Of a DNA stretch of 64,000 nucleotides, positions 21,230 to 29,096 are shown one piece after another. Below the pieces are notes generated by a model that saw nothing but the letters and a program-made list of their open reading frames with translations, had not been told where the DNA came from and ran no database searches. Within the stretch, counting starts at the first letter, position 1, and every line of letters begins with the position of its first letter. A program made the position numbers and the translations under genes. The DNA is taken from positions 2,356,001-2,420,000 of the forward strand of contig NZ_AP028934.1 in NCBI RefSeq assembly GCF_036323475.1. The letters are read 5' to 3'. This DNA is from Solobacterium moorei (GTDB lineage: Bacteria; Bacillota_I; Bacilli_A; Erysipelotrichales; Erysipelotrichaceae).

Positions 21230-21460
21230 TTATTTATCAACAAACTTCTGAATTTCCTCAAACCCAATGAGTTGTTCAATTCCATCTTCATGATGAACTA
21301 ACATCGTCGGCGCAATCATAATTCCTAAATTTCTACAGAGTTTCATATTCTTCTCTGCTTCCAGAGCTTCATACGCAAAGTTTCTTTGCACCATGTACTC
21401 CTTGATAAGTTTACACTTTGGACAATTCTTTGTTGTGATTAATTGTGGAAGTTTTGTCAT
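21230..21460 (-). CDS. Glutaredoxin-like thiol protein next to nrdD
   Basis: A 76-residue thioredoxin-fold protein with redox motif NCPKC (residues 13-17) and the cis-proline region IAPTMLV. It overlaps the nrdD stop by four bases (ATGA), so the two are translationally coupled. Class III ribonucleotide reductases of the NrdD2 type take electrons from a small thioredoxin or glutaredoxin instead of formate. This protein is the natural candidate for that role (inference). Its overall size and the lone CxxC are NrdH-like. Confidence 0.75.
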   Translation of the reverse strand: MTKLPQLITTKNCPKCKLIKEYMVQRNFAYEALEAEKNMKLCRNLGIMIAPTMLVHHEDGIEQLIGFEEIQKFVDK

Positions 21461-23397
21461 CTTTCGTTAACAGCCTCTTGGTACAGATAACCTTCGATTG
21501 GATAATCACGATTGCATGTATTCAATGTGATATATGGAATTGTATAGTTTTCCATAATACGCCCTAAGAGTACCGCAATGCCTTTTGCGTCATACTCATT
21601 CTTCGCAAGACGCACATTGAAGATGGTTCCACCAGTATAGATTTCCTGCATACGATTCTGTATATCTAAGCGAGTAAATAAATCTACATTTCCATCAATT
21701 GGCAGCTCTGTACTACCTGTGTAGTATGGTGTATCCCCCTGCATCGCAATCACCATATCAGGATATTCTTTTTGATCCTTTAGCGCAAAACGATGAGAAA
21801 TATCACCTGCAGCCACTGCCTCAATACTGAAGAGTTCATGATAATCCGCCTGATATTCCTTTAGACGCTTACGAACATGCATGAGCACATTCTCCGCAAA
21901 GTCCTGTGCCTCTTCTGTATCTAAGCCCTTTCGAATCCACTTTGCATTCATGCATGCTTCATTCATTCCTACGATTCCAATCGAAGAGAAATGATTATCA
22001 AAGCTACCAAGATAATGCTTTGTATAAGGATAAAGTCCTGCCTCTAACAAGCTAGCAAGAACTTGACGCTTTGTACTTAAAGAACGAGCAGAGATATCTA
22101 ATACCTTATCTAAATGCTTCAAGAAATCTTCTTCATCTTTTGCAAGATAGGCGAGTCTAGCCATATTAATAGATACAGTCCCAATCGTTCCTGTATTCTC
22201 TCCATACGCAAATAAACCACCTGTCTTTTTAAATAATTTCTTTGCGTTAAAGTGAGTGCCACTAAAGATACTACGTGCATTCTTCTGCTTTAAATCTCCA
22301 TTTATAAAATTTGCAAAGTATGGAAGACCTGTCTTTACCGTTACTTCTAATAACAATTTTGCATTATCACTATTCCAGTCAAATTTCTTAGTAATTGCAT
22401 ATGTTGGAATTGGGAAGGAGAATATATTTCCTTCCGCATCACCCTCTAAGATGACTTCAAGGAAGGCACGGTTAATGATTGCCATTTCATCCTGACAATC
22501 ACCATATGTAAAGTCTTGTTCCTCACCACCAACAATTGCTGGACGCTTTGCAAGATCTTCAGGGGCCGTCCAATCAAAGCATATATTCGCAAACGGAGAA
22601 ATTGTTCCCCAACGGGATGGTGTATTTAAACTATAAATCAATGTCTGCATACTCTGCTTTACGTCATCAAATGATAAATGATCCATACGTACAAACGGAG
22701 CTAGGTATGTATCAAAGGATGAGAAGGATTGTGCTCCTGCCCACTCATTCTGCATAATCCCAAAGAAGTTTACAATCTGATTACAGATGGTAATGAGATG
22801 CTTTGCAGGAGCGGAAGCAGTCTGCTTAGCCACCCCACTCAAACCTTGCTGGATTAATTCTTTCAAGGACCAACCTGCATTACATCCTGTTAACATATTC
22901 AGATCATGAATATGGATATCCCCATCGCGATGTGCAGTGGCAACCTCTTCATCATATACTTCACTCAACCAGTAATTGGTGGTGATAGAGGCTGAGTTTG
23001 ATAAAATCAAACCACCAACAGAGTAGGTTGTATTACCTTTACTGTGCTGATTTCCTGTATTGATATAATTGTCCACAACAGAATGATAATCAAATGTTGT
23101 ATTTGTAATATTACGTACATTTTCACGCTGTTTACGATAGAGGATATACGCCTTTGATACATCCGCATATCCCGATTCACTTAATACCTTTTCTGCACTA
23201 TCCTGAATCTTTTCTACGTCGATTAAACTATTCTGAATTTTAGGTTCAAAATCACTGGTAATACGTAGTGCAATCAAATCAATCACGCTATCGGTGTATT
23301 CACGATCACATGCATCAAACGCTTTGCGAATTGCACTTGCGACCTTCTTGATGTTAAACGCTGCAGTACTGCCATCTCTTTTCTTTACACGATACAT
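21457..23397 (-). CDS. nrdD: Anaerobic ribonucleoside-triphosphate reductase, short C-terminus
   Basis: A 646-residue class III reductase that makes deoxynucleotides without oxygen. An ATP-cone (KRDGSTAAFNIKKVASAI) opens the protein. The active-site region GCNAGWSLKELI, the barrel motifs NICFDWT, GIVGMNEACM, and STELPIDGNVDLF are present. Unusually, it ends at IPYITLNTCNRDYPIEGYLYQEAVNER. The four-Cys zinc ribbon and the R-V-x-G-Y glycyl-radical loop expected after this point are missing, and no continuation is seen in other frames. The final EGYL is the only Gly-Tyr near the end. The ATG at 23397 is preferred over the GTG at 23400. Between nrdG and the glutaredoxin gene. Confidence 0.85.
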   Translation of the reverse strand: MYRVKKRDGSTAAFNIKKVASAIRKAFDACDREYTDSVIDLIALRITSDFEPKIQNSLIDVEKIQDSAEKVLSESGYADVSKAYILYRKQRENVRNITNTTFDYHSVVDNYINTGNQHSKGNTTYSVGGLILSNSASITTNYWLSEVYDEEVATAHRDGDIHIHDLNMLTGCNAGWSLKELIQQGLSGVAKQTASAPAKHLITICNQIVNFFGIMQNEWAGAQSFSSFDTYLAPFVRMDHLSFDDVKQSMQTLIYSLNTPSRWGTISPFANICFDWTAPEDLAKRPAIVGGEEQDFTYGDCQDEMAIINRAFLEVILEGDAEGNIFSFPIPTYAITKKFDWNSDNAKLLLEVTVKTGLPYFANFINGDLKQKNARSIFSGTHFNAKKLFKKTGGLFAYGENTGTIGTVSINMARLAYLAKDEEDFLKHLDKVLDISARSLSTKRQVLASLLEAGLYPYTKHYLGSFDNHFSSIGIVGMNEACMNAKWIRKGLDTEEAQDFAENVLMHVRKRLKEYQADYHELFSIEAVAAGDISHRFALKDQKEYPDMVIAMQGDTPYYTGSTELPIDGNVDLFTRLDIQNRMQEIYTGGTIFNVRLAKNEYDAKGIAVLLGRIMENYTIPYITLNTCNRDYPIEGYLYQEAVNER

Positions 23398-23400
23398 CAC

Positions 23401-24552
23401 TTACACCTCCTTCGCTAATCTTAATTCTACATTCTTCACATATGGTTCAACTGCATTCTTCATTTCTTCCATCTCTTCTGCAGTATATGCATGCAAATCA
23501 GGTTGAATCACCGTATCCGAAGACACAAATTGTTGTAATACATAACGAGCATCACTACCAATAAACTTGGCAATCTCTATCAAATCATCGACCGTATGGA
23601 ATTCTTTTACAACGGTTGTTTTAAATTCATGTTCTATTTTATATTCTTGCAGCAGACATACGCTTTCTGTAATAGGATGTTTGTATTCCATATCCGATTT
23701 TAGTCCACTGGTTAATGGATACTTCTCGGCACTATTCTTTATATCTAATGACACAAAATCCAACAAGCCTTCTTCCAATAATATTCCAAGCTTCTCATTG
23801 TTTGTGCCATTAGTATCCAGTTTCACTGCGTAGCCTAGTTCTTTGATCTGACGAATAAATGGAATAAGTTCTTCTTGTAATAATGGTTCACCACCACTAA
23901 TGACTACACCATCCAATAACCCACTACGTTGATTGAGGTATGAAAGGATTTCTTCTGGTGCGATATAGCGATATTTCTCTGGAATAAACACAAGATCTTT
24001 CTGATTGCAGAACGGGCACTTCATATTACATCCAGCCGTATAGATTGTCGCCGAAACTTTTCCAGGGTAATCCGTAATCGTTGTCTTTTGTAGGGCACCA
24101 ATTTTTAATGTATGGAACGCATCCAGTTCGCTAGATAAAATATTACGAGAGTTTTCACAGGCAACGTTTAGCATCTCCTCAAACCGGTCGAAATCTACAC
24201 CACTGGCTAACGCAGCACGACACTGATTACGGAAATCATATACAGCTGTCATCATTGTGGATGCTTTATCCGTAGTGTGTAAGTGCTTCATACGATGGTC
24301 TTTTTCGTCCTGTACCGCACTTACATATCCCTGCTCAATCAGACGCTGAATACTCTTCGTTGTTGTACCTTTATCCACTTCACTGATACGTGTAACGTCT
24401 TGCATTGTGATGCCTTCATTCTCATTGATAATCAATAAAAATGTTAATTGGCCGGAGCCAATATCATATGGCGCCAGCATCTTATCAAAATATTTTTGTG
24501 TATTGCGAAACAATACTGATAAATTCAAAATAAAATTACTCGTATCACTCAT
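23401..24552 (-). CDS. nrdG: MarR-type regulator fused to NrdG radical-SAM activase
   Basis: A 383-residue fusion. Residues 1-145 form a MarR winged-helix domain (TMQDVTRISEVDKGTTTKSI is the recognition region, LIEQGYV the wing). Residues 148-383 are an anaerobic reductase activase with the radical-SAM cluster CNMKCPFC (C175, C179, C182), GGEPL, and TNGT. NrdG normally generates the glycyl radical on NrdD and is about 170-240 residues. There is no stop, start or ribosome binding site between the halves. Adjacent to nrdD (4 bases). An Fe-S enzyme joined to a DNA-binding domain could let cofactor status or oxygen control nrd transcription (inference). Confidence 0.88.
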   Translation of the reverse strand: MSDTSNFILNLSVLFRNTQKYFDKMLAPYDIGSGQLTFLLIINENEGITMQDVTRISEVDKGTTTKSIQRLIEQGYVSAVQDEKDHRMKHLHTTDKASTMMTAVYDFRNQCRAALASGVDFDRFEEMLNVACENSRNILSSELDAFHTLKIGALQKTTITDYPGKVSATIYTAGCNMKCPFCNQKDLVFIPEKYRYIAPEEILSYLNQRSGLLDGVVISGGEPLLQEELIPFIRQIKELGYAVKLDTNGTNNEKLGILLEEGLLDFVSLDIKNSAEKYPLTSGLKSDMEYKHPITESVCLLQEYKIEHEFKTTVVKEFHTVDDLIEIAKFIGSDARYVLQQFVSSDTVIQPDLHAYTAEEMEEMKNAVEPYVKNVELRLAKEV

Positions 24553-24636
24553 TCCGGATTGGAGCTCCTTATAGTTAGTATTTTATCATATTATTCTCTA
24601 TTCAAAACCTCGTTCAAATGAAAAGTTCCTAAACAT

Positions 24637-27686: not shown

Positions 27687-29096
27687 ATGAAATTTACATT
27701 TGAAGACAAGGTACAAATCTACAAGGAACGAAAACTTGGAACCACATTTTCTAAGCTCCAGTTAAAATGGAAAATGCAAAAATCTAAAATTGAATATATT
27801 GTTAGGCTAGTTGATAAACATGGATTGGATATTCTACGTCATAGTTCTCACGATTACTCTGCTGAATTTAAAGAAGCAGCCATCTATAGAGTATTGACTC
27901 TTCATAAGTCAATAATGAGCGTATCAATAGACTTAGGGTTGTCTACCGATAGTCTTCTCTTTCGATGGATTAAAGAATATAAAGAAAATGGATATAATGT
28001 CGTTGTAAGGAAGCGAGGACGACATGCCAAAGAAGAAAACAATCGAGGAGCTGGAGAAAGAAAACAAGCTCCTACGCGAGCAGAACTTGAGGCTATTAAT
28101 AGAGAACGAATTCATAAAAAAATTAGATGCCTTAGTTACGGAAAGAGAAAAGAGAGAAAAGAAGAAATAGTTAGGGCGATATCGGAACTAAGGCAAGAAC
28201 TACATGTACCTGTTGGATATATCATCCAAACGATAAATACCAGTACACAATTGTCTTATCATATCAGCCGTTCTGACTACTATTATTGGAAAGACAAACA
28301 AGACAGTGATTTCAAATATGATGATGTAATGAATGACATCATCAATGTTTTCTATACCCATAAGAGAAGATACGGATATCGACGTATTTATCTGGAAATC
28401 AGAAAGCTGTATCCAACGATCAATCGTAAGACGATACAAAGGCTTATGCATAAGATGGGTCTATTTGGAAATACACCTAAAGCTAAATACAAATCATACA
28501 AAGGCAATATGAATGGTACAGTAGAGAATCACTTACTAGAAAAGGTAGTTGATGAAGAGAATCACATTACCTATTACAAGCGCAACTTCTCTACAAGTAC
28601 AGTTAACGAGAAATGGACAACAGATGTATCAGAGTTCCACATCACTGCAGGCAAGCTGTATCTATCACCTATTCTCGACATGCATAATAGAGAAATTATA
28701 TCTTGGAATATATCTAATAATCCAAACTATGAGCAGATTGCCAATATGCTTGATATCGCATTTCATAGATATCCAAATATAGAAGGACTGATATTCCATT
28801 CTGATCAAGGATGGCAATATCAAATGAATCAATACCATAAGGCTCTACATGAACACGGGGTCATCCAATCGATGTCTCGCAAAGGAAATTGCCTAGATAA
28901 TTGTGTAATGGAGAACTTCTTTGGAAAGATGAAGAATGAGATGTTCTACGGACATGAATATGAGTTCCATACATTGGAAGAATTGAAATGTGCCATGGAA
29001 GAATACATACACTATTACAACGAAGAAAGAATACAGACAAAATTAAAAGGCCTAACCCCTTGTCAGGCAAGGAATCAAGCCTTATCATGTCGGTAA
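27687..29096 (+). CDS. IS3-family transposase of element A, with misplaced frame
   Basis: A continuous 469-codon frame. The start has an AGGAGG ribosome binding site. The N-terminal helix-turn-helix (about residues 1-110) and the C-terminal DDE integrase are good: D in WTTDVSEF, D in FHSDQGW, and E in NCVMENFFGKMKNE. But residues about 112-160 read as a charged, unlikely sequence, while the leucine zipper expected there is encoded in another frame (28024-28170). So the long frame is probably not the natural product. Either a small indel near 28,020 damaged orfA, or two frame changes are used. HHYNEERIQTKLKGLTP-type ending is normal for IS3 orfB. Confidence 0.75.
   Translation: MKFTFEDKVQIYKERKLGTTFSKLQLKWKMQKSKIEYIVRLVDKHGLDILRHSSHDYSAEFKEAAIYRVLTLHKSIMSVSIDLGLSTDSLLFRWIKEYKENGYNVVVRKRGRHAKEENNRGAGERKQAPTRAELEAINRERIHKKIRCLSYGKRKERKEEIVRAISELRQELHVPVGYIIQTINTSTQLSYHISRSDYYYWKDKQDSDFKYDDVMNDIINVFYTHKRRYGYRRIYLEIRKLYPTINRKTIQRLMHKMGLFGNTPKAKYKSYKGNMNGTVENHLLEKVVDEENHITYYKRNFSTSTVNEKWTTDVSEFHITAGKLYLSPILDMHNREIISWNISNNPNYEQIANMLDIAFHRYPNIEGLIFHSDQGWQYQMNQYHKALHEHGVIQSMSRKGNCLDNCVMENFFGKMKNEMFYGHEYEFHTLEELKCAMEEYIHYYNEERIQTKLKGLTPCQARNQALSCR
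28024..28170 (+). CDS. Leucine-zipper segment of IS3 OrfA in the alternative frame
   Basis: A 48-codon frame reads MPKKKTIEELEKENKLLREQ and then a regular heptad of Leu/Ile to EREKREKKK, the dimerisation zipper of IS3-family OrfA. It ends at TAG right before the orfB start region. An AAAAAA-type slippery run lies inside and upstream of its end, where a -1 shift would enter the orfB frame. It has its own ATG with GCGAGG upstream. Either part of a broken orfA or a separately started piece. Confidence 0.55.
   Translation: MPKKKTIEELEKENKLLREQNLRLLIENEFIKKLDALVTEREKREKKK

Follow-up and report, generated by a model that had tools for sequence, protein, structure and literature searches.

A MarR-NrdG2 fusion as a predicted repressor of anaerobic ribonucleotide reductase genes in Erysipelotrichales

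We propose that a protein of Solobacterium moorei in which a MarR domain is fused to the activase NrdG2 acts as a repressor of anaerobic ribonucleotide reductase (RNR) genes, doing the job of NrdR, with the ATP-cone of an NrdD as its probable nucleotide sensor. We consider this reading probable; it draws partly on inference and partly on what the sequences themselves contain, namely the fusion, its conservation, the sites and their co-occurrence with it, a dead NrdD2 and purifying selection. More tentatively, RNR and activase may have been turned repeatedly into a dedicated two-protein ATP/dATP-sensing repressor, made up of MarR-NrdG2 and a catalytically dead NrdD with its ATP-cone, that controls the remaining active RNR, as an analogue of NrdR that arose independently out of RNR parts. 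The fusion gene lies in a 64,000-nucleotide stretch of contig NZ_AP028934.1 (positions 2,356,001 to 2,420,000), called here the window; coordinates are those of the window, or of its genome where marked G000.

In most bacteria, RNR genes are described as being repressed by NrdR, whose ATP-cone senses nucleotides (PMC9110341); it has been called the universal repressor of RNR in bacteria (PMC12051234). None of the 295 sampled genomes of the order encoded an NrdR above the TIGR00244 cut-off; the same profile found NrdR in 9 of 14 control genomes, and the weak matches resembled ATP-cones of long RNR frames. A balanced dNTP supply is essential and an order with no detected NrdR needs another regulator, for which MarR-NrdG2 is a concrete candidate with defined predicted operators.

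A single-frame fusion widespread in the order

The fusion gene (23401-24552, minus strand) reads through 383 codons in a single frame with no internal stops. Its MarR domain (residues 1-145; 24118-24552, minus strand) matched Pfam MarR_2 at residues 32-87 with 40.9 bits against a cut-off of 27, and the Pfam MarR profile above its gathering score (32.0 against 24.6 bits). The radical-SAM NrdG2 domain (residues 151-343; 23524-24102, minus strand) matched TIGR02495 of NCBIfam with 195.6 bits against a curated cut-off of 131.15, and its CxxxCxxC Fe-S motif is intact, reading CNMKCPFC with C175, C179 and C182 in place (residues 175-182; 24007-24030, minus strand). In an AlphaFold2 model (mean pLDDT 84), the MarR fold runs through helix 121-144, residues 138-147 form a short low-confidence stretch and the radical-SAM barrel follows; Foldseek matched the MarR half of this model to 5eri and 3s2w and the barrel to PFL-activating enzyme. 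Neither the Zn-ribbon nor the ATP-cone of NrdR (TIGR00244 type) was found in the fusion protein by Pfam. Upstream of the gene, a promoter-like TTGAAC-16-AATAAT (24590-24617, minus strand) was recognised only by its match to the consensus.

The first-pass annotation had described one frame joining MarR and NrdG without an internal stop, and the ORF, the MarR_2 and TIGR02495 matches and the cysteines confirm it. It had also named two findings that would speak against a true fusion, domains made separately and a join of two genes; both were checked and neither was borne out. Residues 133-152 contain no ATG, GTG or TTG codon, so that translation has no obvious place to start between the domains, and separate production of the domains was rejected on this ground. 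The domain-architecture search that it had suggested, carried out across the order, gave single-frame alignments over both domains in at least about 145 of the 295 genomes (rows tallied by hand, the count being a lower bound), and a sequencing error or assembly join was rejected because of these homologues, which include isolates such as Sharpea and Eggerthia. The fusion is likewise present in family f14, which belongs to the same class. In the rest of the sampled phylum NrdG2 is a free-standing protein, with alignments beginning near residue 148, and a phage collection gave NrdG2-like or other radical-SAM matches only, with no fusion. A full-text literature search, outside which many subscription papers lie, turned up neither a MarR-NrdG fusion nor regulators derived from NrdD, and no RNR activase doubling as a repressor. 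Three genomes (G155, G187 and G233; loci L273, L271 and L270) carry the fusion without an adjacent NrdD; in G233 it begins directly 3' of a GDPD gene and has no operator of its own. The window also holds an IS3-like transposase gene (27687-29096), and a near-identical protein is encoded elsewhere in the genome (L120).

Conservation of the MarR part was examined across 63 homologues. The stretch KGTTTKSIQR (residues 61-70), within the recognition helix DKGTTTKSIQRL (residues 60-71; 24340-24375, minus strand), has a mean entropy of 0.69 bits, against 0.62 and 0.66 for the Fe-S loop. D60, K61, K66, D85 and R87 are invariant, the last two forming the D85-x-R87 wing (24292-24300, minus strand), and helix and wing are retained where NrdD is dead. 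With a recognition helix that varies as little as the Fe-S loop, the MarR part appears to be functional and under selection, as expected of a DNA-binding domain. The earlier idea of a DNA-binding regulator of anaerobic RNR genes has strong comparative support, from the conserved helix and from the sites described below; binding as a dimer to a palindromic operator, typical of the MarR family, is predicted, the sites having been identified by comparison.

Palindromic candidate operators at RNR promoters

An 18-bp palindrome, tAGTTGGAnnTCCAACTa, lies 5' of most fused genes and of a second, intact nrdD (nrdD1, as distinct from NrdD2, the NrdD partner of the fusion). In the upstream regions that were read, it often follows a promoter-like element and precedes the ribosome-binding site; TAGTTGGAAATCCAACTA is a site of this kind in a relative. 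Scanning the 295 genomes for the exact palindrome gave 29 sites, and a reversed control pattern gave 0. RNR genes follow 23 of the 27 exact sites inspected: 8 precede the fusion, 12 nrdD1 and 3 another nrdD, the remaining 4 being before unrelated genes. At up to 4 mismatches, the palindrome was found in 56 of 63 fusion promoters, against 10 of 1890 shuffles, and in 28 of 30 nrdD1 promoters of the genus, against 3 of 900. The site core tracks the genome, its two promoters both having GGAnnTCC in most of the window's genus and GAAnnTTC in G024 and G119.

Among fusion-bearing genomes of other genera, TAGTTGN6CAACTA at up to 2 mismatches precedes nrdD in 11 of 17, the other six having no site at that threshold, as against 0 of 24 nrdD promoters in fusion-free genomes of the order, a count that leaves out G115, a fusion-free genome with an exact site. 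Within family f2 the site is present in 6 of 7 genomes with the fusion and 0 of 20 without it (Fisher p 2e-5, relatedness ignored); most of these cross-genome comparisons are not phylogenetically independent. This tracking of site with fusion bears on another explanation, that a separate, free MarR-family protein binds the palindromes and the MarR part of the fusion is incidental. The palindrome does resemble common MarR sites, it stands ahead of unrelated genes in g61 genomes, and G115 has its exact site at nrdD1 with no fusion detected. Against this, the site is found with the fusion in these counts, it occupies the fusion's own promoter in most relatives, and the fused recognition helix is nearly invariant, so that we regard binding by a free protein as improbable and prefer the fusion as the binding partner. 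In addition to G115, G230 and G256 have an nrdD1 site with the fusion undetected, which incomplete drafts could explain, as could another MarR protein. Some family f2 genomes without the fusion carry exact palindromes ahead of unrelated genes. Of three loci with exact palindromes in fusion-free genomes (L133, L134 and L132, in G036, G080 and G059), two have the palindrome before the same substrate-binding-protein gene. In G179 and G210, nrdD1 has no site and may share the fusion's operon, as it lies on the same contig a few kb downstream.

Several genera have nrdD divergent from a Crp/Fnr-like gene with a different palindrome, an arrangement identified by eye; at L222, L223, L224 and L241 a GTTGCAnnTGCAAC-type palindrome lies between the two. 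These GTTGCAnnTGCAAC palindromes of fusion-free genera were set aside as versions of our operator, for they probably belong to the divergent Crp/Fnr-like gene, which may be another RNR regulator. In MarR-free clostridial nrdG2-nrdD operons (L023 and L025), AAGTTGCAATTGCAACTT or AAGTTGCATTTGCGACTT lies immediately upstream of the stand-alone nrdG2.

Binding of the fusion to its own promoter, as first suggested, is favoured for most relatives by the 56 promoters counted above and was rejected for the window's genome, where the best own-promoter site, TATAAGGAGCTCCAATCC (24556-24573, minus strand), has 6 mismatches, a score typical of shuffled sequence. By comparison with relatives it is a decayed operator remnant, overlapping the ribosome-binding site, and in the nearest relative (L003/G139) the own-promoter site is likewise decayed or absent. 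A clear site, TAGTTGGAAATGCAACTA, lies outside the window, 1.4 Mb away (G000:944380-944397), 20 bases 5' of an nrdD1 (G000:944418) whose product has intact cysteines and the glycyl motif RRTCGYIG. Because the only strong site precedes nrdD1 and the own-promoter site has decayed, the predicted target of the window fusion is likely nrdD1 rather than its own operon. The second-best site of the genome (456971) falls within an ORF and was put down to chance. Upstream of the class I nrdA-nrdB operon (G000:C1:614 kb; L204), in this genome with no detected NrdR, there is no palindrome, the best match having 5 mismatches. An insertion element lies directly 3' of nrdD1 (L269 3872-5200; G000 about 946.8-948.1 kb), with no nrdG1 nearby; most other genomes checked have nrdG1 in that place.

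The neighbouring NrdD-derived protein and nucleotide sensing

Next to the fusion gene, an NrdD2-derived pseudoenzyme is encoded at 21457-23400 (minus strand). Active NrdD2 relatives are about 790 residues long and carry SMCCRL, GYCAGW, a CPxC zinc knuckle, SRITGYYRP and a C-terminally fused redoxin. The window protein ends after 647 codons and lacks the knuckle, the glycyl-radical loop and both the SCCR and GYC cysteines: SMCCRL has become SIFSGT, with Phe-Ser in place of the finger-loop cysteine pair (MCCRL in active relatives; 22261-22266, minus strand), GYC has become GCN and GSGEST has become AYGENT. The redoxin, fused in active relatives, is here a separate 76-residue ORF with CPKC (21230-21460, minus strand), as seen from the ORF, Pfam and comparison. 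In NrdD of the NrdDh type, SCCR is the candidate location of the radical cysteine (PMC4493059). L003/G139 shows the same changes and also lacks the glycyl loop, and neither locus holds an adjacent NrdD with a glycyl-radical loop for NrdG2 to activate. Judged by its missing catalytic residues, the neighbouring NrdD is catalytically dead.

We examined 22 dead NrdD2 cases, all of which retain the ATP-cone motif and the MarR helix and are otherwise diverse. Fourteen form one clade that has mostly kept the glycyl loop. Many dead cases, G129 and G108 among them, retain it, and some radical chemistry may persist there; the loop is absent from the window and G139, G014/G045, G008/G030, Eggerthia and G161. 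The Fe-S motif is lost in G008, G030 and G227; G231 was also scored without it, probably from a wrongly cut frame. In a tree built from 43 fusion proteins, well-supported branches require at least 3 changes for the dead state and parsimony requires 4; going by the missing catalytic residues, catalysis is lost in at least three lineages. Pairs of dead NrdD2 gave dN/dS of about 0.03-0.11 where dS was unsaturated, which argues that they are not decaying. The best-conserved segment of the window protein is its ATP-cone (23122-23391, minus strand; Pfam PF03477, 4.2e-20). In active NrdD2, the body is 88% and the cone 75% conserved; in dead NrdD2 the cone exceeds the body, at 77 vs 55% for window-Solobacterium, 75 vs 35% for Eggerthia-G007 and 58 vs 28% for G008-Solobacterium, and in G161 the cone alone is recognised by Pfam. 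A function reduced to nucleotide sensing would be expected to leave such a pattern. Of the 22 dead cases, 5 keep the fusion's own site, against 16 of 17 active ones, and the nrdD site persists in all 10 dead-lineage genomes inspected.

In the mechanism that we infer, which comprises DNA binding, repression rather than activation, NrdD docking on the fusion and nucleotide sensing, the MarR part would bind tAGTTGGAnnTCCAACTa sites just downstream of RNR promoters, the NrdG2 part would dock an NrdD, and the ATP-cone of that NrdD would report the ATP/dATP ratio, so that RNR transcription would come under repression whenever the dNTP supply is ample. Class III NrdD changes its oligomeric state in response to ATP and dATP (PMC11226230), and a shift of this kind could alter DNA binding. 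In the ancestral form, the same proteins would also be working activase and reductase, and the operon would repress both itself and nrdD1. NrdD2 of the window lineage would have lost catalysis, the pair surviving mostly or entirely for its role in sensing and in repressing the intact nrdD1 (G000:944418).

The fusion might instead repress RNR while sensing oxygen, Fe-S status or SAM through NrdG2, leaving the NrdD2 derivative a mere scaffold. The intact Fe-S motif of the window and of most homologues fits such a sensor. However, G008 and G030, which have no CxxxCxxC, still have the MarR helix as well as an exact site ahead of an intact nrdD, and selection favours the ATP-cone in dead NrdD2; we therefore consider it unlikely. 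The first-pass annotation had listed Fe-S cluster, SAM or NrdD as possible signals. The first two are unlikely to be general, given those two relatives with the MarR domain and distal site, and NrdD, in the form of ATP/dATP sensing, is the better idea because the neighbouring NrdD is catalytically dead, which had gone unnoticed.

It is just as doubtful that the window NrdG2 serves to activate NrdD1 in trans, with the pseudo-NrdD idle or acting as a chaperone and the MarR part adding nrdD1 regulation. The intact NrdG2 Fe-S motif and the insertion element found in place of nrdG1 after nrdD1 speak for it, but G014 and G045 keep the fusion and a dead NrdD2 despite having nrdG1 beside nrdD1, and purifying selection on the pseudo-NrdD would be left unexplained. 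Alongside the preferred sensor-repressor role, activase function may still be under selection in the window, since the NrdG2 Fe-S residues are kept.

Relation to known regulators and enzymes

The dead NrdD cases amount to separation-of-function mutants made by nature, and from them one would predict that nucleotide-sensing regulation by the RNR complex itself predates its loss of catalysis. In some gut bacteria, genes with an anaerobic RNR and activase annotation may not make dNTPs.

Like NrdR (PMC9110341), the fusion is predicted to act on RNR operons as a repressor close to where transcription starts, nucleotides being sensed by an ATP-cone. It differs in having no Zn-ribbon, in using MarR for DNA binding at an unrelated operator, and in that the ATP-cone is on a separate, NrdD-derived protein. 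With the NrdG2/NrdD class III RNR (TIGR02495; NrdDh type, SCCR), it shares an intact NrdG2 and an NrdD-derived partner with an ATP-cone; here, in contrast, NrdG2 has an N-terminal MarR domain, and the partner is without glycyl loop, zinc knuckle and active-site cysteines. MarR regulators (5eri, 3s2w, FabT) have the same winged helix, D-x-R wing and 16-18 bp palindromic promoter site, whereas here a radical-SAM activase is fused to them. BirA and PutA are trigger enzymes with DNA-binding domains, in which a pathway enzyme doubles as a repressor, and we propose the same for the fusion. The enzyme-repressor principle is therefore already known; the RNR activase version is new and is unusual for the repeated loss of partner catalysis, which, unlike in BirA and PutA, leaves a regulator made of RNR parts.
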